Source of the DNA: an uncultured Clostridia bacterium
GTDB lineage: Bacteria; Bacillota; Clostridia; Oscillospirales; Acutalibacteraceae
Direction of reading: 5' to 3'
DNA: 64,000 nt
Assembly: GCA_947628665.1 (NCBI GenBank)
Contig: CANRAU010000009.1
Coordinates: 19,743-83,742, forward strand
The position numbers and the translations under genes were made by a program. Within the stretch, counting starts at the first letter, position 1. Each line of letters starts with the position of its first letter. This document shows positions 13,058 through 56,076 of this stretch, piece by piece. The notes under the pieces were generated by a model that saw only the letters and a program-made list of their open reading frames with translations, was not told the DNA's origin and ran no database searches.

Positions 13058-13198
13058 AATCCTTCACCCGTTCACAAAAGCCGCAGCGCAGAGAGATCCG
13101 AAAGCGCATACGGATATAGCTTATTTTATCATATTTTTATGTAAATCACAATATGCAAATTCACAAAGCGGGCGTTTTGCCGCCGAAGCATAAAATCA

Positions 13199-13222
13199 GA
13201 CCCGATGCAAAAGCATCGGGTC
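13199..13222 (-). terminator. Terminator downstream of the surface-protein operon
   Basis: Perfect hairpin gacccgatgc-aaaa-gcatcgggtc, followed on the minus strand by TGATTTTATG. Confidence 0.6.
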
Positions 13223-13279
13223 TTGATGTTTGATTTCCTTCTCCCCACATCTAAGGTCAGAAATCTATGCATGGGGGAT

Positions 13280-14374
13280 TCAGACGCGCGTGGGTTCTTC
13301 TTCCTCATCTTCATCCTTCCTGCGTGCGATGATGAGCAAAAGCAGGAAGAAGGTCAACAGGAAGATCCCGCCCGCCACCAACGGGTACTCGCGAATCAGC
13401 GCGCCCGTTGTGGAGATCACAGGGTTGTCTGTGATGAAGTGCTTCTCCGTAGTGGGTTCTTCCGGCACAGGCTCTACAGGCGCTTGCCCGGGTACTACGG
13501 TAACGGTCCCGTCCGCATTGACGACAAAGTCGAGATAGAGATGTTCCGTATTTTCGGGAACGGTCACAAGCTGTGTGCCGTCCTCCAGCACGTCTACGGT
13601 TACTTCGGTTGCGTTCGGATCAACATGAACCGAGAAATTCGCAGAGCCGGCCACATTGCCGTCCTCATCGGAAATTTCTACAACATAGAAGCCGTCCTTG
13701 ACGTCGTCCGCATTGTATGCGCCGTCTTTATCCGCATCCGCCGTGATGTCGCCGAAGTTGAAATCCAAATGCGCCTTCGGGAACGGATCTTCGCCGCGAT
13801 GAACATGACCGCTCATGCCCATATGCGTACAGGGATCCCCCTGGTGATCATGGTCGCCGGGATTCGACGGGTCGTTCGGATTGGTCGAGCCGCCCGGATT
13901 TGACGGGTCGTTCGGATTGGTCGAACCGCCCGGATTCGACGGATCGTCCGGGTTGGTCGAGCCGCCCGGATTCGACGGGTCGTTCGGATTGGTCGAACCG
14001 CCGCCGTGTTCCGCGTCATCGCATTTTTCAAACGTAAATACGATGTCCATATCCGTGCTGATCTCGTTCAGTTTCAACTGCCCATAGCGTACTTGGTCGG
14101 TCACATCGACGCCGTTGACGGTTACCTTTTTCAGGTGGCTGTCATGCAGGCAGACAACGTCCAGACCTAAATTCGCAAAGCGGTCAACCGTGATCGTTTC
14201 GGGGTTTTGGAGACGACGACCATTGTTGAGAATGTACCCGCCGTAATTGAATGATACGGTAATTTCATGGGTGCTCGGGACTACGGTTTTCAAATTTGCA
14301 CTGTCGGCGAAAGCGCCAAGCTGCAACGAAAAACACAGCAGTAGGCAAAGTAGAATGCTGCAAGCTTTTTTCAT
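13280..14374 (-). CDS. Secreted, C-terminally TM-anchored surface protein with GGSTNPNDPSNP repeats
   Basis: Signal peptide MKKACSILLCLLLCFSLQLGAFA; 4 x 12-aa repeat; C-term YPLVAGGIFLLTFFLLLLIIARRKDEDEEEEPTRV; no LPXTG. Confidence 0.85.
   Translation of the reverse strand: MKKACSILLCLLLCFSLQLGAFADSANLKTVVPSTHEITVSFNYGGYILNNGRRLQNPETITVDRFANLGLDVVCLHDSHLKKVTVNGVDVTDQVRYGQLKLNEISTDMDIVFTFEKCDDAEHGGGSTNPNDPSNPGGSTNPDDPSNPGGSTNPNDPSNPGGSTNPNDPSNPGDHDHQGDPCTHMGMSGHVHRGEDPFPKAHLDFNFGDITADADKDGAYNADDVKDGFYVVEISDEDGNVAGSANFSVHVDPNATEVTVDVLEDGTQLVTVPENTEHLYLDFVVNADGTVTVVPGQAPVEPVPEEPTTEKHFITDNPVISTTGALIREYPLVAGGIFLLTFFLLLLIIARRKDEDEEEEPTRV
13860..14003. repeat. 4 x 36-bp in-frame tandem repeat
   Basis: ggattcgacgggtcgttcggattggtcgarccgccc repeated four times with few substitutions; encodes GGSTNP(N/D)DPSNP. 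Confidence 0.92.
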
Positions 14375-14410
14375 GAAACCACCTCCTTAATACTACTAAT
14401 CAATCGCAAG

Positions 14411-14908
14411 TTAAGCCGCTTCATAGGTAACCGTAAAGGTGACCGTGCCTGTGTATGCTGCGATCGGTGCATCCGCCCAATTTGCGATCGATACGCTGGG
14501 CTGCGTTTCGGGAGCCTGCTCGTTGCAGTCCGGCCCGAAGGTCGATTCTGCGCCGTTTTGGAGGGCAAAGGTCAACGTCTTTTCGGTCAGATTCGACGTC
14601 ATTTTCCCCCCGTTGTTTTCCTCGGCCTTAACCTTCAGCTGTGCGCCGAGCGCAAGCTGCGTGGTTACTTTATAGCCAAGCTCATACGAATCGGTATCGC
14701 CCCAGGCGATGGTCACTTCTGCAGGGTAGCTCACGGTATAGGTCGAGGGGTCTTTCCCCTCTTTATCGGTCGTTTTGGTCGTCACATTTGTCTGACCGGT
14801 CGGACCCGTATCCTTCGTGATCGTTTGATCTGCCGCGAAAGCGGGTACACAGACCGCAAACAGCATAACGAGCGCAACAATAAGAGAAATTGCTTTTTTC
14901 ATAATCAT
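14411..14908 (-). CDS. Small secreted paralogue 1 (IPA-x-x-x-IxW family)
   Basis: Signal peptide ...LFAVCVPAFA; STYTVSYPAEVTIAWGDTDSYELGYKVTTQLALGAQLKV...YTGTVTFTVTYEAA. Confidence 0.9.
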   Translation of the reverse strand: MIMKKAISLIVALVMLFAVCVPAFAADQTITKDTGPTGQTNVTTKTTDKEGKDPSTYTVSYPAEVTIAWGDTDSYELGYKVTTQLALGAQLKVKAEENNGGKMTSNLTEKTLTFALQNGAESTFGPDCNEQAPETQPSVSIANWADAPIAAYTGTVTFTVTYEAA

Positions 14909-14928
14909 TACTCCTATTCAAAACGCGT

Positions 14929-15423
14929 TTAATCAGTTGCGGGAATGTATGTAACCGTAAAGGTCATTGTGCCGACATATTCGGCGATCGGAACGCCCGC
15001 GAAGCTCGCGATTTGCACGGTGGGCTTCGTCACGGGGGAAGCCTCGTCGTTTACTTCGTGGAAGGTTGCGGCTTCGCCGTTTTGGAGGGCAAAGGTCAGG
15101 GTCTTATCCGTACCGACCGCCTTCATTGCGCCCGCATTGTCCGCCGCAACGGCAACCGTCAGCTGATCGCCCAGCAACAGCTGGGAGGTCACGGTATAGT
15201 TGACTTCCTTCTCAGCGGTGTCGTTCCAGTCGATCTGCACGTCCGCCGGAATTTTGATCGTATACGTATACGAGTCCGTCGCCGCGTCGATATTCGTCTT
15301 TACTTCCACTTTGCCTTCCTGCGGCACAGTATCCTTGGAAATCTCTTGCTCTACCGCAAAAGCGGGTACACAAACCGCAAACAGCATGGCGAAAGCAACG
15401 ACGAGAGAGATAACTTTTTTCAT
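14929..15423 (-). CDS. Small secreted paralogue 2
   Basis: MKKVISLVVAFAMLFAVCVPAFA; YTYTIKIPADVQIDWNDTAEKEVNYTVTSQLLLGDQLTV...YVGTMTFTVTYIPATD. Confidence 0.9.
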   Translation of the reverse strand: MKKVISLVVAFAMLFAVCVPAFAVEQEISKDTVPQEGKVEVKTNIDAATDSYTYTIKIPADVQIDWNDTAEKEVNYTVTSQLLLGDQLTVAVAADNAGAMKAVGTDKTLTFALQNGEAATFHEVNDEASPVTKPTVQIASFAGVPIAEYVGTMTFTVTYIPATD

Positions 15424-15459
15424 AATGATCTCGCTCCTGTTAAAGCCTTATCAGACAGC

Positions 15460-15966
15460 TTATACGGGAACGTAGGTTACCGTGTAGGTCAGGGATACCT
15501 TATACACGGCAATCGGAACGCCGTCAAAGCTGTTGACTTGGATGGTGGGGGACTGCGGCGCGGTTGCGTTATCGTTGACCTCGCCGAATGTCGCTGCGTC
15601 GCCGCCCGTAAGCGTGTAAGACAGGAAGTTCACTTCGTCGCCGTCGGGTTTCATTTTGTTCTCGGCGTCGCCGTCGATCTTCACTTTCAGGGATTCGCCC
15701 TTTTGAAGCTGGGAGGTCACATGATAGGCTACATCCTGTGCCTTGGTGTTGCCCCAGGCGATCTCTACATCCGCGGGAATGGTCACGGTGTAGGAACGCA
15801 CTTCCTCGCCGGCTTCATTGGTTGTTTTGGTAAAAACATCTACTTTTTGGGGATCTTTCGGAGTCGGCTGTCCATCTGCGCCGCTTGTAATATCGGCCGC
15901 AAAAGCAGGAACGCAGACCGCAAACAGCATAATGACTGCCAGCAAAACAGAAATTGCTTTTTTCAT
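15460..15966 (-). CDS. Small secreted paralogue 3
   Basis: MKKAISVLLAVIMLFAVCVPAFA; SYTVTIPADVEIAWGNTKAQDVAYHVTSQLQKGESLKV...YKVSLTYTVTYVPV. Confidence 0.9.
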   Translation of the reverse strand: MKKAISVLLAVIMLFAVCVPAFAADITSGADGQPTPKDPQKVDVFTKTTNEAGEEVRSYTVTIPADVEIAWGNTKAQDVAYHVTSQLQKGESLKVKIDGDAENKMKPDGDEVNFLSYTLTGGDAATFGEVNDNATAPQSPTIQVNSFDGVPIAVYKVSLTYTVTYVPV

Positions 15967-16008
15967 AATGGTCTACTCCTCACAAAAACTGTATAAAACT
16001 TACTTTCC

Positions 16009-16512
16009 TTACGCCGCAGGAGCCGTGTAAGTTACCGTAAAGGTTACAGATCCGGTGTACTTGGCGACTGCCTGATCGAAAGCATTCACCCTGACCTTGG
16101 GCTGTGCCGTGGGGGTCGTACCCTTGTCGTTAAGGCCTGTGAATTCCTGTGTGTCATTGTCGCTCAAGGTGAAATACAGATAGGTCACGCCGTCGTCCGA
16201 TTCCAGTTTCATTTTACCGCTGTCGTCCGCCTCCACGGCAACGGACAGCTTCGCGCCATATAACAAAACCGATTCGATGCTATACGCCAAATCGTGATCT
16301 GTCTTGTCGTCCCAGGAGATGCCGAGATCGGCGGGAATGGTCACGGTGTAGGTGCTGGTCACATCTGTAATGTCGGTATAAACATCGACCTGATACGGTC
16401 CTTCCGGAGTTGGCTGTCCGGTCGCGTCGTTTTTCACTTCAACCGCAAAAGCGGGTACGCAGACGGCAAACAGCATGCATACTGCCAATAAGACAGATAA
16501 GAACTTTTTCAT
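16009..16512 (-). CDS. Small secreted paralogue 4
   Basis: MKKFLSVLLAVCMLFAVCVPAFA; STYTVTIPADLGISWDDKTDHDLAYSIESVLLYGAKLSV...YTGSVTFTVTYTAPAA. Confidence 0.9.
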   Translation of the reverse strand: MKKFLSVLLAVCMLFAVCVPAFAVEVKNDATGQPTPEGPYQVDVYTDITDVTSTYTVTIPADLGISWDDKTDHDLAYSIESVLLYGAKLSVAVEADDSGKMKLESDDGVTYLYFTLSDNDTQEFTGLNDKGTTPTAQPKVRVNAFDQAVAKYTGSVTFTVTYTAPAA

Positions 16513-16581
16513 TGCGCAAACTCCTTTCCGTACAAATTTAAAAGGGTTGCTTTTTCAGCATTCTGCCGAAAGAGGGGATAA

Positions 16582-17061
16582 TTATGCGTCAACAACGGCT
16601 ACGGTGAAGGTCAGGTGCGCTTCATACCCTGCAACAGGCGCGGTCTTCCAGTTTTCCTCGGTAATGCCGATGTTGAGCGTGTTGGTCTGGGTGGTGGTAA
16701 CAGTATCGACCGTCACATCCGTGTCGCCGCCGAGGGTGTAATCCAGCGTGTAATCCAAATATTTCATTTGCTCGTAGTCTTTATGCTTCGTAACCTTGAC
16801 GCTCAGCTGTTTGCCGGCTGCCAAATGGGTGGTGGAGGTGTACTGGATGTCGGTGTTCTTAGTGTTCCAACTGATGTGAGTCTCTGCGGGATATCTCACT
16901 TCGAACGTACCGCCCGCCATAGTTCCGGTGTCGACCTTTACCATCGCGTCGCCGGTATTCGCACCCTTATCTGTGAGCGAATTCTCTACAACAGCAAACG
17001 CGGGGATAGAAATTGCGCAGATCATAAGCACTGCAAGTGCAACAGAAAGAACTTTTTTCAT
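16582..17061 (-). CDS. Small secreted paralogue 5
   Basis: MKKVLSVALAVLMICAISIPAFA; GTFEVRYPAETHISWNTKNTDIQYTSTTHLAAGKQLSV...NWKTAPVAGYEAHLTFTVAVVDA. Confidence 0.88.
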   Translation of the reverse strand: MKKVLSVALAVLMICAISIPAFAVVENSLTDKGANTGDAMVKVDTGTMAGGTFEVRYPAETHISWNTKNTDIQYTSTTHLAAGKQLSVKVTKHKDYEQMKYLDYTLDYTLGGDTDVTVDTVTTTQTNTLNIGITEENWKTAPVAGYEAHLTFTVAVVDA

Positions 17062-17150
17062 GATAAAACTCCTTTTTTTATATTAGATTGGGATTGCTTT
17101 GCGGAATGCTTGTAGGATTTGCTGATGGGGCTTGTAAATGAGGTAGTGGC

Positions 17151-17636
17151 TTACGCGCCCAAAACGTCGACGGTGAAGGTCAGGATGTCTTCATACTGAC
17201 CGACAACCGCTTGGTTCCAGTCGTCCGCCGTGATGTCAACGGAAATGGTCTTGTCGGCCGCAGGATAAATCACAGGGCCTGCGCTCGTGAACGCGGTATC
17301 GCCCGAAAGCGCATAGGGCAGGGCGAAGCTGTCCGAAACGGATGCCTGATAGGTCATTTCGTTGTCGCCCGCGACGTCGATTTGCAGGCTCTTACCGTAG
17401 CCAAGGTGGGATTCTACCGAATAGGTCAGTTCGGTGTTCTTGGCGCCCCAGGTGATCTCGGTATCCGCAGGGATGCTGACGGTGAACTTTTCGGCGGATT
17501 CGCCGTGTTCGTCGGTCATGGTCGTCTTAACGATGGTCGTACCCGAGCCGGGGGCAGTCAAGTCCGCGAATGCGGGGATCATCATAGCGAACGCCATAAC
17601 GAGCGCCAAGACAAGTGCGAGAGTCTTTTTCATCAT
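17151..17636 (-). CDS. Small secreted paralogue 6
   Basis: MMKKTLALVLALVMAFAMMIPAFA; KFTVSIPADTEITWGAKNTELTYSVESHLGYGKSLQI...DWNQAVVGQYEDILTFTVDVLGA. Confidence 0.88.
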   Translation of the reverse strand: MMKKTLALVLALVMAFAMMIPAFADLTAPGSGTTIVKTTMTDEHGESAEKFTVSIPADTEITWGAKNTELTYSVESHLGYGKSLQIDVAGDNEMTYQASVSDSFALPYALSGDTAFTSAGPVIYPAADKTISVDITADDWNQAVVGQYEDILTFTVDVLGA

Positions 17637-17669
17637 GTATACTCCTTTTCAAAAAATTTGTTTGCACCG

Positions 17670-18131
17670 TTATTTCACATATTCAGCGGTAAACGTCAGC
17701 GTATCGGTATGCTCGCCCGCGGCCGCCTTTTTCCACTGGTCTGCACCGATATTCACGGTAAGCGGGTAGCTCTTGCCGGCCTCGCCGGGGGCGAAGGTGA
17801 TACCGTCCGCACCTGCGAGCGTGTACGCGATCGTCTTTTGCGCGTCTGCCGTGTTGACGAGCTTGTAAGCGTTCTGCGACTCTACGCGCACGTCTACCTT
17901 CGCGGCGGGTTCGATCCAGAGGACAGTCGCCGCCACTTCGCCGATGGCGGTCGAAGACGCTTCCCAATCAATGGTGGTGTCGGCGGGGTAGGTTAGCTGA
18001 TAGGAAGGGCCGTTCCCGTCCGGGCCGTTTTCGGTATAAATCCTGGTGTCATCGGCAAAAGCGGGGATCGCACAAACCGCCAACATCAACAGCGCAAGGA
18101 CGAGCGAAAGGGCTTTTTTCATGGTTCTCAA
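17670..18131 (-). CDS. Small secreted paralogue 7 (most divergent)
   Basis: MKKALSLVLALLMLAVCAIPAFA; SYQLTYPADTTIDWEASSTAIGEVAATVLWIEPAAKVDV...QWKKAAAGEHTDTLTFTAEYVK. Confidence 0.85.
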   Translation of the reverse strand: MRTMKKALSLVLALLMLAVCAIPAFADDTRIYTENGPDGNGPSYQLTYPADTTIDWEASSTAIGEVAATVLWIEPAAKVDVRVESQNAYKLVNTADAQKTIAYTLAGADGITFAPGEAGKSYPLTVNIGADQWKKAAAGEHTDTLTFTAEYVK

Positions 18132-18166
18132 CTCCTTTGCAGTAGATTTACTTTATTTGCTAAAGC

Positions 18167-21100
18167 TTATTGTGTACTGCCATCCGAATAGGTGACGGTA
18201 TAGGTAAGCTTCGTTTGGTATTTGTCGGGTACCTTGCCGGACCAATCGGTAACAGTTAGGGTGGGCTTGGGATCGGGCAACGTCTGCTCAGTCATTTGCC
18301 CCTCGAACCTCTTTTGGACGTCAAATTCCGCCGTCGTAAACGCGATCTTGGCGTTGGGGTCGTTGCTGCTGATTAGTTTGCCGGGCTCTGTGCCGGAGTC
18401 TTTGACCGAGACTTCGATATGTCCCTTAGACAAGGTGGTCAAGACCTTATAGGAGACGTCTTGTGCTTTGTCGTCGCCCCACTTAATGGGTATCTCGGCC
18501 GGAATCGACACGGTGTAGTTATCGCCGGGCGCGAAGAGAATCTTGATTTTCTTCGTCAACGGCTGCTGATCGCCGCCAAGAAGCGGCGTGCCATCGCCAT
18601 GGTAGAACTGCACGGTCAATGTATCCGACAGCGCAACCGGCACCTTGGGGTCGGCCGCCAAGCTCACGTTGAAGGTGAAGTTTAAGGGTGCGCCTTGTGT
18701 CGCCTTATTGTTCGCAACCTCGCCGATTTTCGTCTCTGTCTTTAAAGCCGAGGCGTCGTAGCTCGCATCCGCCGGTGTATTGGAGTCAGCCTTATTCGGA
18801 ACGGTCGATTCGCTGGAGGGACGCGTGATTGCTACCGTATAGGCAGCCTCAGGATTCGAGCCGCCCTGCATCGTGACATCCGACATCAGTTTGCCGTTTT
18901 CGGAGGTGACGGTTATGTAGCTGAGCGATTCGGTGTCCGTCTGCGAGGGCAGGAACACGGAATACTGCACGTTGTAGGTCGCCGAGCCTTGGAGTTCATC
19001 CGGCGTCAACGTGACGGTCGCCTCCTCAAGGTCTTTGTCGCTGTTCAGCGCGACCTGCTCGGCAGGGAACAGCGGATAAATACCGTCTGGATAAGTGTCC
19101 TCACCCTTTACCCTTGCATCGCCGTCTAATTTAACCTGGTCGGCTTCTTCGTGCCAAAGGTTATACAAATCCAAAATGCAGTAGTAAGCGGGAATGAGAG
19201 AATGGTACATTTCGTGCTGATCGTACAGCGTCTTCAGCTCAATGGTACTTTCGTTAAACAGCTTTTTGTTTTGGATGGCGTCCAGCGTTTTCGCGTAATA
19301 GTCCTCATACTTCGCTTTGAGATGGAGAACGCCGCCATCCAATTTTACGCCGGTGCTGTTCCAAGTCGTCGTATCATCATCCTCCGGCGTGTTTGCCGCC
19401 CCCGCACCGCACTGGTAAGAATTGACGTTGCAGCGAAGCCTCTGGAGCGTAACGATAATGCCATCGTTGTTTTCCTGACCGAGGTACAGTTCGCCGGGCA
19501 ACATTTTCATATTTCTAAGAATGTACTTGGCGTAATAACCGAGGTCTGTGTACGCTTGCCACGCTTTGGAAAGTGTGCTGCCGCTCGAGTCGTTCAAATC
19601 CGTCGCAAGGGAGAAGAAGAATTTACCGACTGCCGAATCATCAGGAGATGCGTTTCCCGGGTCGTGGTACAGTTCCTCAATCTGTGCGTACGCGGCATTT
19701 GCGGCAGTTAACTCGCCCGCCATATACACCAGACGCTTGGCGTTGGCGTAAGCGTTTTCGAGTTCTGCTTTTGAACCCGCCAACTGCTCTTTCTCGGTTG
19801 GGGACAAGCGTGCATAGCTCTTTTCATACAGGTCGATGATTGCTTGCGCAGCCGCTTCGTCCGTCAAACCGTACTTGGCATAGTCGATTGTCCCATCTTT
19901 TATGTTATACAGGCCGGACATCTCGTTCTCATGACCGTTTCCTGTATACGACTCTTTTGTTTTGGAATCCCAGCCTGCAATCGCAGCTTGAATCGCGCTC
20001 ACGTCCTGCTCGGCAGCGGGTCTACTGTGGTTTGTCGCCCAATCCTGATATGTCAGCAGCGTTTCATGCGCCTTTTTGACGGACTCATGCGTCGTTTGGA
20101 AAGCAGTCAAGCTATTGTAAGCCTGCAACGCCTCGTTGACAGCCGCCAGGAAAGCATCATAATTCTCCCCGTAAGAGTAGGGGTCGATTGCATTGACCTT
20201 TTCTTCGAACTTCAACGCGCTTGAGGACTTGGAATCCGTCAACGCTTCAAAGAACGGGTCTGTATTCGGCCGAGCCGATTTATAGGCATTTTCGTCGTAG
20301 GAGAAGCCGACATTGTCGATGGTGAACGAGCGTCCGTCCATCTGCTTCGCGGCCGCCGCGCCGTCGGTATTCTTCACGTCCAAAGGCGCAACGCCAATCT
20401 GAACGCGGTAGATGCCGTTCAAAGCCTCTTTGTCGGTGCTCATCGAATAGTTATAGTCTCTGCTTCCCACCGCGCCGCGCAAGCCCGACTTGAAATACTC
20501 CAGCGGAATCATGATATACCCGCGGTAATTGTCAAGGGACAGCTCCTCTACGCCGTCGTTGCCGCTCGAGCTGGAGGGCAGCGTATAAATTTTGTTGTCG
20601 ACGTTGCACTGTACCCATTCGCCGGTATTGGGGGACAGCAGCCAAAAGCGTCTGTTGGCTGCGTTGGAGCCGAAGTCGAGCGGGAAATCTTCAAATTCGG
20701 AAGGCGCGTCCGCAGCGTCGTTGACATTGTTCGGGCAATAGGCATGGAGCACAACGGACAAACGGAAATTGGAAAGCTGCGAGAAGTCGGCATAGAACAC
20801 CAGGCAGATGGGCGGGTCGGCGTTGTTATTTGCAATGGTAATGTCGCTGCTTGCGAAGTCGCCCAAGGAATCCAGTCCCGTGGTCTGCTTACGAAGCTCA
20901 GCGGGGTCATCGTTCTCCGCCCCCTTACGGGTAAAGGAAACCGCCGTATAACAGCCGTTGTTTTCAGAATAATACTGGCTGTCGATGGTCGTCGTCAAGC
21001 CGTGCGTACCCATAAAGCCGTTTTCGTCTACGGTCGCCCAAGCGGGGTCCCAATAGATGTCGCCGTTGCTCTTCAGGTTGTTGCCCAACGTATCGACAAC

Positions 21101-23638
21101 GTTGCTATCGCTTGTAGCGTTATCACTTGTATGCCCATTGAAGGTATGCATGGTCGAGCCGGTATAGGTGACCAAACTCTTTTTGAAGCGGTAGTCGGCC
21201 GTGGAGAGATCCGCTACATCGTCACGGTAGTAGTTACCGCCGAGACCCACATTATTCTGTTGCGAACCCGGGTTGCCCGCGTTTGTATCGTTTTCCAGCT
21301 GCCAAGCGCGCGTGCCCACAGTCTCCTGCTCAAAGTCGTTGAACATGATATAGGGCGTACTCGCCAAGGAATCGCCGACGGGAACGGAGTTTTCGCGCAG
21401 CTGGAACGCCATAAGCTGGACATAATCTAACAGCTTTTGCTCGTTCGCACGCCCGAATACGGTCAGCTGATCCAAGGAAAGATGCCGATAAATCTGCCAA
21501 ATCTTCGTAATGGTGTCCTTCGTAGTCTGCGGGATGGTCAGAAGATTTTCATCGGGTCCGGGCAGCTGCTCCAAATCGACAATAAGCGGCTGCACGATGT
21601 CGAGACCGTTGTTGTCCTTGTGGTACGTTGACGGCTCCGCGTTTTTACAGGCTTCCCTCGCATCGGTGAATTTCTTCCAAGCGGCACTCATATTGAGTTC
21701 CGCGGCCTTGGCCGCAAGTTGGTCATCTGTCAGAAACTCATTTCCTATCTCCTTGTTGGCCTCATACCCCTTCTGATAGGCTTGTATCATTTCCTCGATA
21801 TACGCCACTTCGTGGAAATCGCCCCAGTCGGGGTTGCTGTCAAACAATTCGTCGCAAGCGGTGAAAATGGCGCGCGGAATTGCCGTCTTTTGGTCATAGT
21901 AATCCGCCATGGGGTCGCCAATGTTGCCGGTGCCATCGTCGGGGTACGATCCCCCGTCGGTACGGTAAAAGAGGACGTTGTCGATAAAGAAAGACTTATC
22001 GACGGAGTCCGCGCTCGCGCTTTTATAGCTGAAGCCGCATGCCATCATGTCCTCAATGGCCTTGTAGGCGGTTTCACGGTTCGGAATATTGCCGTCCGCA
22101 TCCATCGTCGCGCGTTTGGGGTTATCGTTTGTGACATTCGTAGGGTCGAGATCCACAGCAAGCATTTTGCCGAATTCTTCAGAGTAAGTTTTTCGGGCTA
22201 GATCACTGCTTCCATGACCAAACTTAGCACACAAACCGAAGTGCTGCAGCAAGAGCGCATCCTTGATAGATGTGCCGGCAGGATCGATGGTTACTTCTTT
22301 GCCGAGACTGAAGTGCTTGTCGAACATTTCCTTCATTCTCGCACTCATTGACTCAGTATTCCACCCACTACCCCAATGCTCATTTAATTTAAAATCGTCA
22401 GTATAAGACTGGCTCCAATCATCGTTTTTCGCTGTGACTTTGGAATCCTCGGTCAGGCAGAAGAACTCAATCGGGATACGGATATAGCCGCGGTAATGCC
22501 CTAAATCAATCGTACCTTCCGGCATGCTCTGCTTGAGCCATGTGCCGTCGGCCTGCTGTATGTAGCAATATTCCGGCTTTGTCTCTTTCTCGGACGATTT
22601 TGTATAACCGAGCGTAGAGAAGACATCGCTGTCCGCCGTCAAATAGTCGGTTTCACCTCCACCGGGCGCATCCGCATGCACTTTGCCGCCATCCGAACGG
22701 TACAGGGTCTTTTCGTTGGACGTCATTTGGAAAGAAAGCCCTTGCAGCTCGACCTGCGAAAGGTCTACCCAGAACCAAACCTCTTCGGCGCCGCTATAGT
22801 CCCACATCTGCCGCGAGTAGCGCGTCATAAAGCCGGCGGGGTTTGCTTGCCGAATGGTGAAGCCGTAGCCGACGGTATCCTTGTTGTAATTCTCGCCCGC
22901 GCTCGCGCTCACGTTCTCCTTACCGGTTTGATCGGCCGCGCCGACAACATGCAAATCGCTCTCCGCGCCCTCCGTCAAAACATAGAAAGGCGCGGTAGAC
23001 CCCTCTAAACGATTCTGCTCCATATCCAACATCACGCGCGCGGCGGTTGCACCCGTCGTCAGCGGCGTAATCCCGTCGTAATTCGTGAACTTGGGTACGT
23101 TGGAAACGGCCGTATTCAGCGTTTTGGAGAACCAGCCTTCGCTGTCGTAAGCGGTGATGGAAACGCTGTAGGCGTGGTTGGGATCCAAGCCGTTTTCAAG
23201 CCCCTTAATCCCCTTGATTTCCTCAGCGGTAATGGTTGCCGTGCGGAGTTCTATTTGCTCCGCCGGCTCCGCTTCGGGCTCCTTTACGGTCTTGCGGAGA
23301 ATCACCTTGTCGGTGTGCGGCACTGCGTCTCCCACGTTGCCCATATCCACAAGCTCAAGCATATAGCCTTCAACCACTTTACCCGTCTCGTACTTATCGT
23401 TGTTGGTGGGTAAGGCTTTCGGGAAAGTGACGGAAATGTCACCCTCTCCCGTTTGATAAGCCGAATAGCTGCTCGCCGTCTGCGCCGCAGAATCATCCGT
23501 CGGAAACGTCGGCACGGGATCGTAGGTATGCTGCCATTCCGTCGCCGCAAGAGCCAACGGCAAAGACGTCACGAGCAAAACGACGCACAGCACGGCGGCC
23601 GTTACACCCTTTAGAAGCTTTTTGCTTTTCGTTTGCAT
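18167..23638 (-). CDS. Giant secreted protein (1823 aa) with duplicated internal domain and C-terminal copy of the small-paralogue domain
   Basis: Signal MQTKSKKLLKGVTAAVLCVVLLVTSLPLALA; internal repeats YRGYIRIPIEFF / YRGYIMIPLEYF and SFFIDNVLFY / SFTIDNVGFSY; C-term NYTVSIPAEIPIKWGDDKAQDVSYKVLTTLSKGHIEVSV...YQTKLTYTVTYSDGSTQ. Confidence 0.9.
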   Translation of the reverse strand: MQTKSKKLLKGVTAAVLCVVLLVTSLPLALAATEWQHTYDPVPTFPTDDSAAQTASSYSAYQTGEGDISVTFPKALPTNNDKYETGKVVEGYMLELVDMGNVGDAVPHTDKVILRKTVKEPEAEPAEQIELRTATITAEEIKGIKGLENGLDPNHAYSVSITAYDSEGWFSKTLNTAVSNVPKFTNYDGITPLTTGATAARVMLDMEQNRLEGSTAPFYVLTEGAESDLHVVGAADQTGKENVSASAGENYNKDTVGYGFTIRQANPAGFMTRYSRQMWDYSGAEEVWFWVDLSQVELQGLSFQMTSNEKTLYRSDGGKVHADAPGGGETDYLTADSDVFSTLGYTKSSEKETKPEYCYIQQADGTWLKQSMPEGTIDLGHYRGYIRIPIEFFCLTEDSKVTAKNDDWSQSYTDDFKLNEHWGSGWNTESMSARMKEMFDKHFSLGKEVTIDPAGTSIKDALLLQHFGLCAKFGHGSSDLARKTYSEEFGKMLAVDLDPTNVTNDNPKRATMDADGNIPNRETAYKAIEDMMACGFSYKSASADSVDKSFFIDNVLFYRTDGGSYPDDGTGNIGDPMADYYDQKTAIPRAIFTACDELFDSNPDWGDFHEVAYIEEMIQAYQKGYEANKEIGNEFLTDDQLAAKAAELNMSAAWKKFTDAREACKNAEPSTYHKDNNGLDIVQPLIVDLEQLPGPDENLLTIPQTTKDTITKIWQIYRHLSLDQLTVFGRANEQKLLDYVQLMAFQLRENSVPVGDSLASTPYIMFNDFEQETVGTRAWQLENDTNAGNPGSQQNNVGLGGNYYRDDVADLSTADYRFKKSLVTYTGSTMHTFNGHTSDNATSDSNVVDTLGNNLKSNGDIYWDPAWATVDENGFMGTHGLTTTIDSQYYSENNGCYTAVSFTRKGAENDDPAELRKQTTGLDSLGDFASSDITIANNNADPPICLVFYADFSQLSNFRLSVVLHAYCPNNVNDAADAPSEFEDFPLDFGSNAANRRFWLLSPNTGEWVQCNVDNKIYTLPSSSSGNDGVEELSLDNYRGYIMIPLEYFKSGLRGAVGSRDYNYSMSTDKEALNGIYRVQIGVAPLDVKNTDGAAAAKQMDGRSFTIDNVGFSYDENAYKSARPNTDPFFEALTDSKSSSALKFEEKVNAIDPYSYGENYDAFLAAVNEALQAYNSLTAFQTTHESVKKAHETLLTYQDWATNHSRPAAEQDVSAIQAAIAGWDSKTKESYTGNGHENEMSGLYNIKDGTIDYAKYGLTDEAAAQAIIDLYEKSYARLSPTEKEQLAGSKAELENAYANAKRLVYMAGELTAANAAYAQIEELYHDPGNASPDDSAVGKFFFSLATDLNDSSGSTLSKAWQAYTDLGYYAKYILRNMKMLPGELYLGQENNDGIIVTLQRLRCNVNSYQCGAGAANTPEDDDTTTWNSTGVKLDGGVLHLKAKYEDYYAKTLDAIQNKKLFNESTIELKTLYDQHEMYHSLIPAYYCILDLYNLWHEEADQVKLDGDARVKGEDTYPDGIYPLFPAEQVALNSDKDLEEATVTLTPDELQGSATYNVQYSVFLPSQTDTESLSYITVTSENGKLMSDVTMQGGSNPEAAYTVAITRPSSESTVPNKADSNTPADASYDASALKTETKIGEVANNKATQGAPLNFTFNVSLAADPKVPVALSDTLTVQFYHGDGTPLLGGDQQPLTKKIKILFAPGDNYTVSIPAEIPIKWGDDKAQDVSYKVLTTLSKGHIEVSVKDSGTEPGKLISSNDPNAKIAFTTAEFDVQKRFEGQMTEQTLPDPKPTLTVTDWSGKVPDKYQTKLTYTVTYSDGSTQ

Positions 23639-23670
23639 AGTCGAAACTCCTTTCTTATAAGATAACGGCG

Positions 23671-24492
23671 TTATTTCGCCTTAATAATGGTTTTGAAATC
23701 CATATTGTTCAATGGCCTCTGCTCCTTGTCAAAGCTGTAAGGTCTGAAATGTACGATCACATTGTATTCCCCCGGATCCAGCGCGCGATTTAAGGTGAAT
23801 TTGGAAATCGCGTAGCCGGGCGGGAGCAAATCGGACGTATATAAAATGTCGCCCGTGCCTTTGCCCGTTTTTACATCCAGCATCTCGATCTCGATCTTGA
23901 AATAGCAGGGATTTTCTTTGGGATTGGAGAACACGAAGTTCTGCTCGCGCTGCCCCGCCACCAGATTCATCTCGGCTATGCCGTTGATCTTGATGTTCCT
24001 GCCCTGCGTCTCGGTTTTTGCCGGTACGGAGATGCTGCCTTCGCCGAGCTCCGCGTTGGAATCGATCACGCCCGGCGCCTGGGTCGTCGGTTCGGGCTTG
24101 CTGTTCGCCTTGATCGCGCGATACGACCCGAAGCCGATCGCCGCAAGCAAAAGCAACAAAATCAGCGCCCACAGCAGCCACAACAGCAACATGTCCTTTA
24201 CAACGGCAAGGTATTCATTCTCGCCGACGCATATATACCCACGCACAGACGTATGCGGCATTTTGACCGGCGCATAGACCGTCTCGACCACGCCGTCCTC
24301 CGAAGTCACGCTGCCGATCTCATCGCGACCCGACGAAATCTGCCCCACGACGGAAAATCCGCCCGCAGGATACATGGCCTCCATCTGCTTTTTGGTGTAA
24401 GACGGCGCTTCAAACGCCGTTTTGCGGTTTCGATAGCTTTTTTCGGCCGCTTCCGCCGCAGACGCTAATGAAAAAGAGCGATATTCCGACAA
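23671..24492 (-). CDS. Single-TM accessory protein at the head of the surface operon
   Basis: Likely TTG start at 24492 (GGAGG-GCTAATT-TTG), SEYRSFSLASAAEAAEKSYRNRK...; TM MLLLWLLWALILLLLLAAIGFGSY; C-term domain ILYTSDLLPPGYAISKFTLNRALDPGEYNVIVHF. Confidence 0.7.
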   Translation of the reverse strand: MSEYRSFSLASAAEAAEKSYRNRKTAFEAPSYTKKQMEAMYPAGGFSVVGQISSGRDEIGSVTSEDGVVETVYAPVKMPHTSVRGYICVGENEYLAVVKDMLLLWLLWALILLLLLAAIGFGSYRAIKANSKPEPTTQAPGVIDSNAELGEGSISVPAKTETQGRNIKINGIAEMNLVAGQREQNFVFSNPKENPCYFKIEIEMLDVKTGKGTGDILYTSDLLPPGYAISKFTLNRALDPGEYNVIVHFRPYSFDKEQRPLNNMDFKTIIKAK

Positions 24493-24614: not shown

Positions 24615-24644
24615 ATTTTATTATTTTTTTAGGCATTCTGTCAA
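24615..24644 (-). promoter_or_regulatory. Sigma-A-type promoter for the surface operon
   Basis: Minus strand TTGACA-18 nt-TAAAAT. Confidence 0.65.
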
Positions 24645-50644: not shown

Positions 50645-51271
50645 CTATTGGGCGGTCTGCGTCTTTTCGGTCTCTGCGTTCAATACGCACCGAACGGTCA
50701 CTCTTGCGCGGCCGTTCCATGTGCAGGTGAAAAGGGTCAAATCCCAATCGCCGCTTTTCATTTCCTCGACCGCCGTGCCGGAAAGCGTTTCCATTTGCCG
50801 GATCGTATAGGAAAACACGTTGCCGTCCATGTCGGTGAATTGCACCGCGTCTCCGGCGGAAAGATTCTTTAACCGCCCGAAATGCGATGTGTAATTGTGT
50901 CCGCAAATCACCAAATCGTTCAGGTATGCCGAGCCGCAATACCGACAGGGCGCGGTTTTCATGCGCTTATAGTCCCAGCTGTCCATCACGGGAAGCTCCA
51001 AATCCAAAGACGGAATGTACAGCCTGCCGATATAGCGATACCCGTTGATCTCCGCCGTCGGCATTTCCCGATACGGGTCAAGCAGATAGGCGGGAACGCC
51101 GTCCGCGTTCAAAGCGCCGGAGGGGATCTCCTCCACCAGCCCCGCGACCTCGGCGTTCACCCGATAGTCATCCCAAATATTATAGCCGATCAGGGACACC
51201 GCCGCCAAAAGCAGGATGCTGCCCACGGCAATCAGCAAAAGCGCGATCCTTCGGTTACGCATCCGCATCAT
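50645..51271 (-). CDS. Sortase (non-class C; class not assigned)
   Basis: DLVICGHNYTSHFGRLKNLSAGDAVQF and LTLFTCTWNGRARVTVRC (catalytic H, C, R); N-terminal TM. Confidence 0.85.
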   Translation of the reverse strand: MMRMRNRRIALLLIAVGSILLLAAVSLIGYNIWDDYRVNAEVAGLVEEIPSGALNADGVPAYLLDPYREMPTAEINGYRYIGRLYIPSLDLELPVMDSWDYKRMKTAPCRYCGSAYLNDLVICGHNYTSHFGRLKNLSAGDAVQFTDMDGNVFSYTIRQMETLSGTAVEEMKSGDWDLTLFTCTWNGRARVTVRCVLNAETEKTQTAQ

Positions 51272-52226
51272 GCCTCGGCTTCAAAAGCAGGAATATCCCG
51301 CTGAACAGCGCGATCGTGCCGAGCACGGCCAGCACGGGTACAGGCCACCACAAAAGCCCCGTTTGCGGCAGTTTTGTGTCGGACGAACCCGTCAGCGTTT
51401 GCGAATCCGTCGGCGTTTGCGAACCGGGAGGCGTTTGCGAAGGCGTATCGCTGCGCACGGTATTGGTCACGATGAAGGTGTCGCCCTGCTGCTGCATCTG
51501 CACGGTATAGTTCTGCGGAACGTCCTTTTCCGTCAGCTGCCAATCGTGATCGGCGTCCAGCTTTTCCCAGGTGTACGACCAGCCGTTGGCACTGTTTAAG
51601 GTCTGCTCCGCATAGACCTTGCCGTCGCAGAGCAGCTGCACCGTAATTTCGGACGGGCGCGCGGATTCGCTGCCCTTGTCGTTCCAGACTTTCAAAGCGC
51701 GGCGCACGATGGGTTCTTCCGGAATCAAAACGGCGTCATATTTCGGTTCGGTCGTCACTTGAAATTCGGACGTGCCGTCCGCTTTGGTAAACGGAACGGA
51801 GACGAGCGTAGACTGCGGCGAAATGCGCACTTTGTCTTTCTCCACGGGCGCGCCGACCACCATGTAAAGCCCTACCGTTAAATCCGAAAAGGTCACGCTG
51901 CCCGTTTCGTCCGTCTGCCCTGCGGCGATCGGCGCAAGCCCGTCGCGGGCGGCATAGGCCGCAAGCGTCGAAGCCAGCGTTTTCCACTCCGCGCTGTTTG
52001 GGTCTTCGGGCATGGTAACCGCATAATCGGAAAAAGGATAGGTTACGGTATACGCGCTTCCATCCCACACGGCCACCCTATAGATTTGAAACTGCGCCTG
52101 CGCGACCGGCTGATCCTCGTGGCGCAACAATACGGTGACAGAACCGTTTTCTGCGGCGAACGCCGGCAAAACGGCCGTCAGGCAAAGCAACGCCCCTATG
52201 AAGATGGACGCTAAGCGTTTTCTCAT
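51255..52226 (-). CDS. Minor pilin/anchor subunit with LPQTG sorting signal
   Basis: Signal MRKRLASIFIGALLCLTAVLPAFAA; SpaA-like beta domains; C-term KLPQTGLLWWPVPVLAVLGTIALFSGIFLLLKPRHDADA. Confidence 0.88.
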   Translation of the reverse strand: MRKRLASIFIGALLCLTAVLPAFAAENGSVTVLLRHEDQPVAQAQFQIYRVAVWDGSAYTVTYPFSDYAVTMPEDPNSAEWKTLASTLAAYAARDGLAPIAAGQTDETGSVTFSDLTVGLYMVVGAPVEKDKVRISPQSTLVSVPFTKADGTSEFQVTTEPKYDAVLIPEEPIVRRALKVWNDKGSESARPSEITVQLLCDGKVYAEQTLNSANGWSYTWEKLDADHDWQLTEKDVPQNYTVQMQQQGDTFIVTNTVRSDTPSQTPPGSQTPTDSQTLTGSSDTKLPQTGLLWWPVPVLAVLGTIALFSGIFLLLKPRHDADA

Positions 52227-52238
52227 GTCATATCCCCC

Positions 52239-53138
52239 TTATGTGTGAGACAGATCCTCGGTTTTTTGTTTTGCTTTTTTCCTGCGGTGAACCATCACGG
52301 CAAGGACAACGATGCCTGCGCCAATCGCGGCAGGCAGGAAAAGGAACCAACGGTTCCATGTGGACATTAAGATTTTTTCAGCCGCAGAAGTGCTTTGCGC
52401 GTCGTTGGCGGGCGTTTCGATCCTGCGGGCGGTGACGACCAATCGGTGGGTGTTTACGCCGTAGGGTGTGCAGGTGATCAGCGTACACAGCTCCTGCCCT
52501 TCCTCGATTTGCATATCAGCAAGCTCTTCCGGGCTTGTGCGGTATATATTTTCCACTCGATACGTCAGCGTTTGATCGAGGACGTGCAGCGTGAACGTGT
52601 CCCCGACTCCCAATTTGTCCAAATCGGTGAAGAGCCGCGCGGACGGCAGACCGCTGTGTCCCGTAAGCACCGTGTGTACGCTTTTCCCCGGCACAGGCAG
52701 GCTGGACGCCTCCAAATGCCCCACTGCGATCTGCAAAACGCTTTCGGCCGTCCCGTGGTAGACGCCGAGAAAGATGTCGGATTTTTCGATTTCAATATAA
52801 CCGATCAAGCCTGTTCCCGTAACGTCCAAAAGGCTCTCGTATTCTTCCCGCTGCGCTGCGGTAAGCTCGCCGATATACGGCATGTGCCGCGCGAGATTTT
52901 CATTGTAGGCCTGTACTTCGGCCAGCATCCGTTGGCATTCGCTTTCGCCAAGCGACTCCACCTGTTGCTGATAATCGTGGATCGCCCGTTCGTTGCGCAC
53001 ATTGTTGTACATGTTAACAAGCGTCGGGTAGAGGATCAGCCCCAAGCCTATCAGCATCAGCGCGCTTACAAGGATCTTGGGAAGCAGGCGAGACGATTTT
53101 TTTGCTTTTTCTTTTGCTTTTGTTTTTTCCTGTTTCAT
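52239..53138 (-). CDS. Class C (pilus) sortase
   Basis: GLIGYIEIEKSDIFLGVYHGTAESVLQIAVGHLEASSLPVPGKSVHTVLTGHSGLPSARLFTDLDKL...CTLITCTPYGVNTHRLVVTARR. Confidence 0.95.
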   Translation of the reverse strand: MKQEKTKAKEKAKKSSRLLPKILVSALMLIGLGLILYPTLVNMYNNVRNERAIHDYQQQVESLGESECQRMLAEVQAYNENLARHMPYIGELTAAQREEYESLLDVTGTGLIGYIEIEKSDIFLGVYHGTAESVLQIAVGHLEASSLPVPGKSVHTVLTGHSGLPSARLFTDLDKLGVGDTFTLHVLDQTLTYRVENIYRTSPEELADMQIEEGQELCTLITCTPYGVNTHRLVVTARRIETPANDAQSTSAAEKILMSTWNRWFLFLPAAIGAGIVVLAVMVHRRKKAKQKTEDLSHT

Positions 53139-53144
53139 AGCCGT

Positions 53145-54014
53145 TTATTTGCGCCGCCCGGTGCGTTTGACAGCCAAAAGGATCGAGAGGATCGCCGCAA
53201 GCGCAAGAACGATCACCGCCGCCCACAAGGTCATGGGGAGCTTCAGGGAAACGGTGTCTGCCGCTTTTCTGCTGTTTGCAAGCCCCGTCTGCGGCGTTTC
53301 GGTGCGCACGCCGCGCACCAAAAGCCTGTGCGTGTTGATCCCGTACGGGGTGCAGGTCATCAGCGTGCAGAGATCCGCTTCGGGATCGACCTCCTGCTTT
53401 TCGGCTTCCTCCGGCAAAACGACCATTACCGATTCCACCCGATAGGTCAGCTCCTCGCCGAGGACGTGCAGCGTGAAAGTATCGCCCGTCTCCAGTTGGT
53501 CAATGTTGCTGAACAGCTTGGAGGAAGGCAGGCCGCTGTGTCCCGAAAGGAACGTGTGCGTGCCTTTGCCGCCCACGGGCAGGGAAGAACCCGCCAGATG
53601 CCCGATCCCGCTCTGCAATACGGCTTCGTCCGTGCCGTGATAGACAGGCAGATAGATGTTGAGCTTTTCGATCTCCACATAGCCCATCATCCCCGTGCCG
53701 GACGGGTCGAGCAGGGATGTGTAACGCTTCGCCTGCTCTGCATTCAGCGTTCCAAAGCGCCGACTGTTTTGCACGAGCTCGCCGTTCCACGCGCGCGCGT
53801 CTTTCAGCATGTTCTGCACGGTCGTATCGTCTAACTTCTGAACGTTTTGTTGATAAGCGTCTATATCCTTTTTGTAATCCAGCGAATGGACGTAATTCGA
53901 GACAGTCGGATACAGCAGCAGGGAAAGTCCTATCAGGATCACGAGCGTGACGATCACGGCGGAAACGACCGTGTGGCTTTTCCGCTTCGTTCTGGTTTTC
54001 GTCTCTTGCTCCAT
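53145..54014 (-). CDS. Class C (pilus) sortase, second copy
   Basis: GYVEIEKLNIYLPVYHGTDEAVLQSGIGHLAGSSLPVGGKGTHTFLSGHSGLPSSKLFSNIDQL...CTLMTCTPYGINTHRLLVRGVR. Confidence 0.95.
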   Translation of the reverse strand: MEQETKTRTKRKSHTVVSAVIVTLVILIGLSLLLYPTVSNYVHSLDYKKDIDAYQQNVQKLDDTTVQNMLKDARAWNGELVQNSRRFGTLNAEQAKRYTSLLDPSGTGMMGYVEIEKLNIYLPVYHGTDEAVLQSGIGHLAGSSLPVGGKGTHTFLSGHSGLPSSKLFSNIDQLETGDTFTLHVLGEELTYRVESVMVVLPEEAEKQEVDPEADLCTLMTCTPYGINTHRLLVRGVRTETPQTGLANSRKAADTVSLKLPMTLWAAVIVLALAAILSILLAVKRTGRRK

Positions 54015-54094
54015 AAGGCTCTCCCTGCCGCCGTATCCGAGGCAGCATGAAAAACTGCCCCGGATACAAACGGTCTTAACGGTTCATTTCAAAT

Positions 54095-56017
54095 TTACGC
54101 GTTTTCCTGCCGACCGCGTTTCTTCGCGATGATCACCAGGTAAAGAACCGCGCCCGCGATCATAGCGCCGCCGACGACATAGAAGATCAAAGTCCCGATG
54201 CCGCCCGTAAAGGGTAAGGACGCCGCTTTCGTGTTGACAAGCTCCTGCCCGATCAGCCCGCTGTTGTACGTACCCGTATTGGTGGTTCCGTTGTAGGTCG
54301 TAACCGCATCGCCGTTCGCCTGATAGGTAAACTCGGAAAGCGCGGATTCGAGGATCGTCGCATTCACTTTCAGTTCAAAATCTTTCATGGTGTTATATCC
54401 CGCGGGTGTGATGATCTCGGAGAGGGTGTATGTATCCGCGTCAAGACCGACCACGTCGGGTATTTCGCCGAGGGTACCGGGTTCCGAAGAAGAGGTAAGG
54501 AGATAGTCTTTCAAAGCGTCAACTGCATCCTGCAAGTTCTTGCCCGCCTTGCCTTCGGTCATGTCTTTCTGATCCTCATAGGAGGCTTTGTCCCATTTTT
54601 CCTTGGCTTCGGTATACTTGGCTGTCAGAGCCTCGACCGTTGCCTTTTCTACCCAGCCGTCAAAAACACGCTTGTTGTCTACATCTTTGAATTTGGCGTA
54701 AGAACTGCCATCGGCGTTTTTCAGCACGAAGCCCGCGCCTCCCAGGCCGTTGGAGGATTCATCGACCTTTTTCAGGTCAAAGCCGAACGTGTAGACCTTA
54801 ACGGCGTCGGATGCGGATTTTGCGGTGCTCGCGGGATGGTTGAGGTCGTTTGCATATTCAAGAACCACCGCGTTTTGGTTGCCGGTGCTGCCGAGCGTGG
54901 CTTTCTCGTTCAACGCCGCTTTGTAGGTAACGGTGATTTTGGTATCGGCGGTGATGTCGCTAAAGCCGAGCGTTTTCAGATCGTTGATCACGACTTCAAA
55001 ACGGCAGCCGTCATCGAGGTTGGTCGCCGCATCGGCCTGCTTTTTGACGGTATACTGACCGTCTGTGAGGGTATGGTCGCCGACTTTTACCTCAAGCGCC
55101 GCCTTGGATTCGTCAAACGTCATCCCGTCGCCCATCGTATCATGGAACGTATAGGCGTAGCTGTGGAAATCTCCATAGTTTTTGGGAAGCGTCCCCTCGA
55201 GAACAAAGGTGACCAATTCGCCGATGTCGGCGGTGGCGGCTTTGTTGGCATTTACCGCATTGATCCATTTGGTAACCGAAGGCGCGGAGGCTTTCAGGTC
55301 AATTTCCTGATCGCCCAATACCGCCAAAATGTACTCGGAGATCGCATCTTTGGAAGTGTGCATATGCTCTGAGTCGCTGGTTTCCGCAATCAGATAATAG
55401 CCGGCTTCCGTTACCGTGATGTTGGAGACGTCGTCTTTCGGAGCGGCCGCGTTCACTGCGGTCGAGGCCGTACCCTTGGTCGTATCCAAATAGCCGTCGC
55501 TCGAGCCGGTGCCGGCCTTGCCGTCCACAATAAACTCGGAGAATCTCTCCAAGAAGTCGTTGCTGCGGCCAACCAGCAGCCGCGCGAGTTCTTCGGCTGC
55601 GTTCGCCTCGGAAGCGTCGGGCAGATCCGCAAACACATTTGCTTCCGCCTCAAAGAATTCGGGGAACTTTTCGCCGTCGGTGGCATAGTTCAAGTTCTTG
55701 AGCGCTGTCACCAAATCGTCGCTCTTGATGCCGGAGCCCCATTGGATGTCGGCCAAAACGTAGTTGTTCCAGTTTTCGGCGTTCCACTGTTTGTCTTTCG
55801 GCGGCTCAGTATCTTTGTGCGGCGTACCTTTAAACAGCTGGTAAGCCTTAAATTGGCCGTTATACATTTTCGGCAATCCTTGGTTGTTTTTGATCGTGAT
55901 GGTCAGGTTTCCGGCCGCCAGCGTCGGTACCATTGCTGAAAGCACCAGTAACAATGCCAACGCGAGGCTCAGCAGCCGTGAAAAGTTTTGCTTGGATGTT
56001 TTCATGGTTGTAATCAC
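54095..56017 (-). CDS. Major pilin backbone with LPFTG sorting signal
   Basis: Signal peptide; ITVTYKAALNEKATLGSTGNQNAVVLEYANDLNH (fimbrial isopeptide-domain type); TYTLSEIITPAGYN; C-term SLPFTGGIGTLIFYVVGGAMIAGAVLYLVIIAKKRGRQENA. Confidence 0.92.
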   Translation of the reverse strand: MITTMKTSKQNFSRLLSLALALLLVLSAMVPTLAAGNLTITIKNNQGLPKMYNGQFKAYQLFKGTPHKDTEPPKDKQWNAENWNNYVLADIQWGSGIKSDDLVTALKNLNYATDGEKFPEFFEAEANVFADLPDASEANAAEELARLLVGRSNDFLERFSEFIVDGKAGTGSSDGYLDTTKGTASTAVNAAAPKDDVSNITVTEAGYYLIAETSDSEHMHTSKDAISEYILAVLGDQEIDLKASAPSVTKWINAVNANKAATADIGELVTFVLEGTLPKNYGDFHSYAYTFHDTMGDGMTFDESKAALEVKVGDHTLTDGQYTVKKQADAATNLDDGCRFEVVINDLKTLGFSDITADTKITVTYKAALNEKATLGSTGNQNAVVLEYANDLNHPASTAKSASDAVKVYTFGFDLKKVDESSNGLGGAGFVLKNADGSSYAKFKDVDNKRVFDGWVEKATVEALTAKYTEAKEKWDKASYEDQKDMTEGKAGKNLQDAVDALKDYLLTSSSEPGTLGEIPDVVGLDADTYTLSEIITPAGYNTMKDFELKVNATILESALSEFTYQANGDAVTTYNGTTNTGTYNSGLIGQELVNTKAASLPFTGGIGTLIFYVVGGAMIAGAVLYLVIIAKKRGRQENA

Positions 56018-56076
56018 CTCTTAAAAAATTTTTGCTTTTTGCCTTTTTTTATATTTCCAAAAGGAGGATGCAAGGT

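Follow-up and report, generated by a model that had tools for sequence, protein, structure and literature searches.

Chaperone-usher (CU) pilins lack strand G. Archaic CU pilins have been described from two-membrane phyla, and an invariant disulfide pair is typical of them (PMC4654587); in Csu, the segment corresponding to the N-terminal extension is the donor strand (PMC4654587, PMC9452303). Donor-strand filaments exist in Gram-positive bacteria as well, as exemplified by TasA/TapA (PMC9674648, PMC10151520), and the WxL (Csc, Elr) gene clusters have a four-part layout, with docking near the wall proposed for their products (PMC9772566, PMC10599100). Here, we analyzed a 64,000-nucleotide stretch of DNA (hereinafter, the window) from a single-membrane (monoderm) gut bacterium with a 2.0-Mb genome, which belongs to the genus of Candidatus Fimenecus. 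The window contains a ten-gene operon that probably encodes a new kind of adhesive surface fiber or complex; no description of this operon system was found in the open-access literature.

The operon resembles archaic CU pili (Csu, CupE; SCPU, PF05229) in the fold and, more tentatively, the sequence profile of its module, in a polypeptide chain that appears to end at strand F with GxYxDTLxxT, in an N-terminal extension with alternating residues, in an adhesin with a C-terminal pilin domain, and in the presence of several pilin genes per operon. Unlike these systems, it lacks an usher, a PapD chaperone, an outer membrane, and a conserved disulfide, and a Pfam search of the genome detected neither usher (PF00577) nor PapD_N (PF00345). 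Instead, the operon includes an Ig protein anchored by a transmembrane (TM) segment and a base protein of TM/LPXTG-like type, together with an 1823-aa giant, the putative tip, and, across the genus, 5 to 9 different modules.

The WxL clusters share with this system a large adhesin with a C-terminal module, small proteins that consist of the module only, a TM protein with an Ig-like ectodomain, and a small LPXTG protein of the EF2685/EF0750 type, although this last component is LPXTG-like in the relatives from Bacilli and has a degenerate motif in the window. However, the module here is not WxL, the TM-Ig protein has a single Ig domain and an N-terminal TM segment rather than the DUF916-DUF3324 organization, and the small modules are far more numerous in this genus. 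In the Pfam search, neither WxL (PF13731) nor WxLIP (PF06030, the DUF916-DUF3324 TM protein; hhalign 0.3%) was found in the genome. The four recurring roles, those of the adhesin with a module, the small modules, the TM-Ig protein, and the small wall anchor, thus follow the WxL cluster logic with different domains. The first-pass annotation of this DNA could name no described system with such a layout, which holds for the domains but not for the layout itself, already present in WxL/Csc clusters (PMC9772566, PMC10599100).

TasA/TapA of Bacillus subtilis is, like the assembly proposed below, a monoderm donor-strand filament with a chaperone-like Ig partner, but it is built from another subunit family and is homopolymeric, without an adhesin tip or an anchor protein. 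Sortase-assembled pili of the SpaA type are Gram-positive surface fibers, too; in contrast to their subunits, the small proteins lack an LPXTG sorting signal, and the operon contains no sortase gene, sortases being encoded elsewhere. A separate sortase-pilus island on the minus strand of the window (50645-63378) encodes three sortases, proteins with Cna_B and GramPos_pilinBB domains, and a 2433-aa protein with FctA, DUF7601, and SpaA domains.

Organization and conservation of the operon

All ten genes are located on the minus strand (Table 1), with gaps of 20-89 bp between the small-protein genes, and a good promoter match and a strong terminator-like stem bracket the set as one putative unit. 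Open reading frames, alignment, and a profile search bear out the architecture initially read from the DNA, namely, seven tandem secreted paralogs and an 1823-aa protein that shares their domain at its C terminus, with a membrane protein on either side. The signal peptide of each small protein (153-168 aa) ends in PAFA; the domain common to these seven proteins also makes up the final ~140 aa of the giant. Pfam and NCBIfam searches with all ten proteins, including TMhead and the giant, yielded no match above the cut-off, and PDB sequence searches with the modules, TMhead, and the giant gave no meaningful match.

Table 1. Features of the operon and its flanks, in window coordinates
Feature	Position	Strand	Remarks
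TMhead (TM-Ig protein)	23671..24492	-	cytoplasmic domain at the N terminus, then TM helix and extracytoplasmic Ig-like domain
Giant secreted protein, 1823 aa	18167..23638	-	18 orthologs aligned; proposed tip adhesin
C-terminal pilin-like module of the giant, without free N-terminal extension	18167..18610	-	
Small protein 7, 153 aa	17670..18131	-	position-1 module; proposed adaptor to giant; orthologous clade in 15/15 operons, SH-aLRT 99
Small protein 6, 161 aa	17151..17636	-	position-2 type module
Small protein 5, 159 aa	16582..17061	-	middle module
Small protein 4, 167 aa	16009..16512	-	terminal-type module
Small protein 3, 168 aa	15460..15966	-	terminal-type module; mature form used for AlphaFold2 model
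Small protein 2, 164 aa	14929..15423	-	terminal-type module
Small protein 1, 165 aa	14411..14908	-	last-position module, adjoins TMtail
TMtail, 364 aa	13280..14374	-	proposed base anchor
Promoter-like TTGACA-18-TAAAAT upstream of operon	24615..24644	-	consensus match only
Terminator-like 11-pair stem downstream of TMtail	13198..13223	-	

Fifteen operons of the genus keep the order TMhead, giant, small proteins (5 to 9), and TMtail. A tree built with 86 small proteins of these operons groups those adjoining the giant in one orthologous clade (15/15 operons, SH-aLRT 99), and the position labels require 12 changes, compared with 39.5 when shuffled. Thus, gene order carries information, as expected if the subunits hold fixed places, and the small proteins, originally taken for interchangeable subunits, are not freely so, given that the first-position paralogs of the 15 operons all fall into a single clade. 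Variation and expansion affect the middle of the array, and small proteins 1-4 of the window represent copies of the terminal type.

TMhead likely starts at a TTG codon and has its TM helix in the middle of the sequence. In fold comparisons, it resembles pilins, chaperones of the PapD type, and generic Ig domains, but none convincingly, with TapA (8aif) low among the matches, and we propose that TMhead is a membrane-tethered chaperone or platform, or else a docking anchor. Homology of TM-Ig to PapD was considered as well and is not supported by profile comparison with the chaperones (prob 2.6). The otherwise disordered linker between the TM and Ig parts of TM-Ig proteins carries a short [VI]DxNA motif, possibly for binding, which reads IDPNA in most of the relatives from outside the genus. 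A free 113-aa version of the cytoplasmic N-terminal domain of TMhead is found at loci L134, L135, and L136; in two distant genomes, its neighbors are secreted proteins of repetitive sequence.

At the other end of the operon, TMtail comprises, in this order, a signal peptide, a beta domain, an NPxDPS repeat, a second, possibly prealbumin-like domain, a degenerate ISTTGAL motif, a TM segment, and the acidic tail RRKDEDEEEE; its matches to SdrD_B (0.15) and to the EF2685/EF0750 family (0.98) are both sub-threshold. The earlier statement that none of the proteins carries LPXTG is accurate for the window but has to be qualified for TMtail, with its degenerate ISTTGAL-TM-RRK end and its Bacilli counterparts that are LPXTG-like anchors. 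In the giant, two segments have a common YRGYIxIPxEYF...FxIDNVxF pattern and may, judging by impression only, be tandem carbohydrate-binding-like domains.

Pilin-like fold of the shared module

The first-pass annotation had suggested a profile of the small proteins and the giant C terminus as well as AlphaFold monomer prediction, and both were carried out here. The module profile retrieved exactly eight full-length copies from the 2.0-Mb genome (E 1e-48 or better), weaker matches being signal peptides, and the same operon context recurs in relatives. Alignment of the seven small proteins with the giant C terminus shows the residues P, A, I, W, L, T, and T in every sequence. Of the 87 aligned module rows, 82 end at most 11 residues after the conserved Thr of strand F; the small proteins stop 2-10 residues past this strand, without a sorting signal. 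The chain end at strand F suggests that strand G is missing, as in CU pilins. Strand A is preceded by an N-terminal extension ~26 residues long; its alternating V/T-x-V/I-x-T-x-T motif was found in 73 of 86 modules, against a shuffled mean of 37. The extension is Thr-rich rather than strongly hydrophobic, and because its second half is confidently placed on the monomer in the AlphaFold2 model, it may be an intrinsic, self-packed strand. Module alignments A1 and A4 contain no conserved Cys column, that is, no counterpart of the archaic-pilin disulfide pair.

The AlphaFold2 model of mature small protein 3, computed from the 87 aligned modules, is confident (pLDDT 93.8) and CU-pilin-like. In a Foldseek search against the PDB, the best match was the archaic pilin CsuA/B (E 5.5e-4, prob 1.0, but TM-score of only about 0.45), followed by CupE, SafA, PapA, FimG, and the FimH pilin domain, and nearly all of the top 32 matches were CU pilins. 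With TM-scores of 0.3-0.5, this likeness is at the level of the fold and does not amount to close homology. TasA is not in the list of fold matches, nor did the module match the camelysin family in Pfam.

Profile comparisons point in the same direction. Against a reference set of 24 archaic (SCPU) pilins taken from named plasmid records, with a CsuA/B bait identical, residue for residue, to PDB 7zl4, hhalign gave the module P 4e-5 and a score of 34.4, whereas 150 column shuffles did not exceed 19.9. For a broad set of mature modules from other lineages, with the signal peptides removed, the score was 38 and the probability 88 (shuffles at most 16). Overall, SCPU pilins scored 33-41 (prob 67-88), compared with at most 20 for shuffled columns, below 1% for FimA-type pilins and PapD chaperones, and 1-8% for a small WxL set. 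Over its second half, the domain aligns colinearly with SCPU as far as the final residue, with the common end AGxYxDTLxxT. The Pfam SCPU profile rings weakly in 2 of the 87 module members, individual matches falling far below the cut-off. These scores are moderate and point to a possible relationship between the module and SCPU. The broad set seemed to match WxL at 93%, but this was due to signal peptides, and the value dropped to 7-8% once these were removed.

Recurrence of the gene set outside the genus

The TM-Ig ectodomain family was identified in 27 of 199 genomes, representing 20 of 111 genera of the order, and, across the phylum, TM-Ig was found in 8 of 300 genomes, 2 of which match the cytoplasmic domain only. 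At 32 of 43 TM-Ig loci outside the genus, a module gene lies no more than 4 kb from TM-Ig, in the same orientation and usually right next to it; ~26 of these 32 matches span at least 100 module residues, and a few are only of signal-peptide length. Order-wide module counts are left out, being inflated by signal-peptide matches. A common type of cluster, present in many genomes, consists of one TM-Ig gene and a single small module. More elaborate variants include locus L089, where a large protein and TM-Ig occur together with two small proteins and a homolog of TMtail, and locus L068, where a module is fused to BspA leucine-rich repeats; in Gordonibacter (L095), TM-Ig lies beside a weak module match.

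In plasmid and other records, clusters were found in Ruminococcus albus, Enterococcus mundtii, E. raffinosus, E. faecalis, Melissococcus, and Listeria monocytogenes, the large proteins with the C-terminal module carrying BspA LRR, beta-helix, or ten MucBP domains. The small anchor of the Bacilli clusters is LPXTG-like and matches the sortase-dependent EF2685/EF0750 family below the cut-off. On an E. faecalis plasmid, a single cluster (L207, 5313-10673) brings together TM-Ig, a small module, an anchor with LPVTG, and a large protein in which ten MucBP domains accompany the C-terminal module. Elsewhere, in L096 and possibly L091 and L153, modules and TM-Ig adjoin ABC transporter genes; one large protein there joins FMN_bind, the module, and a heme-binding NEAT domain, suggesting use in heme capture, and Pfam detected no NEAT in L091 or L153.

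Models of assembly

We favor, with a little more confidence than doubt, a monoderm adhesin assembly of archaic-pilin-like modules, in which donor-strand complementation would join the parts and the giant would be the tip; the same assembly is best read as a sortase-anchored, membrane-tethered adhesin complex or fiber. The pilin-like module suggests that the parts join by strand complementation, with TasA/TapA as the monoderm precedent (PMC10151520, PMC9674648). The original proposal of a multi-subunit beta-sandwich surface assembly tipped by the giant gains support from the CU-pilin-like fold, the position-conserved order, and the recurrence of large adhesins (LRR, MucBP, beta-helix). Its suggestion that a shared C-terminal strand mediates polymerization gives way to a likelier one, in which the N-terminal strand would enter the groove left by the missing seventh strand and the C-terminal strand would be the acceptor edge. 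Each small protein would be an Ig-like pilin module without strand G, preceded by an extension with an alternating VxVxTxT strand. Secreted modules would appear at the membrane, where TMhead would hold or cap them, and the extension of each module would fill the groove of the preceding one. The series would begin with the giant (the tip, with its module at the C terminus and without a free extension) and continue through the position-1 adaptor and the variable middle modules to the last module and to TMtail, the base anchor. The fold, the order and context of the genes, their distribution, and the lack of usher and PapD follow from the computations; we infer the strand exchange and the role of TMhead, as well as polymerization, the product of which might be a polymer or a short stoichiometric complex.

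Several findings speak against donor-strand assembly: the TM-scores reach only about 0.45, the archaic disulfide pair is not conserved, usher and PapD_N are absent from the genome, the extension is Thr-rich and possibly intrinsic, and TM-Ig resembles chaperones and pilins only generically. Moreover, in the many genomes with a single small module beside TM-Ig, a polymer is not needed. These common one-to-one clusters fit the main rival, a WxL-like docking complex without a fiber, which we consider rather unlikely, in which modules would dock one-to-one on TM-Ig or peptidoglycan, the giant would be displayed near the wall, and the small proteins would be alternative partners. The four-part layout, the same as in WxL clusters (PMC9772566, PMC10599100), and the sub-threshold match of the Bacilli anchor to the EF2685/EF0750 family also argue for docking, but alone it leaves the arrays of 5 to 9 modules with a conserved first position unexplained, and the WxL and WxLIP profiles do not match.

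That the small proteins are secreted without an anchor of their own is consistent with independent binding proteins, for instance, for glycans or other ligands, which would share a beta-sandwich and be co-transcribed without assembling; the same module, however, terminates large adhesins, the position-specific clades are conserved, and the pairing with TM-Ig is constant, making this explanation improbable. Less probable still is a matrix filament of the TasA/TapA type, with the small proteins as a biofilm scaffold nucleated by a TapA-like TM-Ig. Although Gram-positive donor-strand filaments are known (PMC9674648, PMC10151520) and TapA (8aif) does appear low in the TM-Ig fold list, the list for the module is headed by CU pilins and lacks TasA, and TasA systems have no giant tip protein.

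The donor-strand reading can be extended, tentatively and with our judgment leaning against the full claim, to a heteropolymeric monoderm pilus homologous to archaic CU pilins, which would be built at the cytoplasmic membrane on a tethered Ig partner without usher or PapD and would occur across Clostridia and Bacilli (likely also in Gordonibacter), on mobile elements. If true, an usherless monoderm pilin of the CU fold with a tip adhesin and ordered subunits would raise the question of how donor-strand fibers are built without an outer membrane and, further, whether the pilin fold is older than the usher. A function would be given to widespread hypothetical proteins of gut Bacillota, and the related gene sets of Listeria and Enterococcus make these ideas testable in tractable strains.

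At locus L068 (7500-14000), TM-Ig, a small module, and the module-BspA fusion are flanked by genes resembling those of an integrative conjugative element, and with the cluster in such surroundings, the system may move horizontally.
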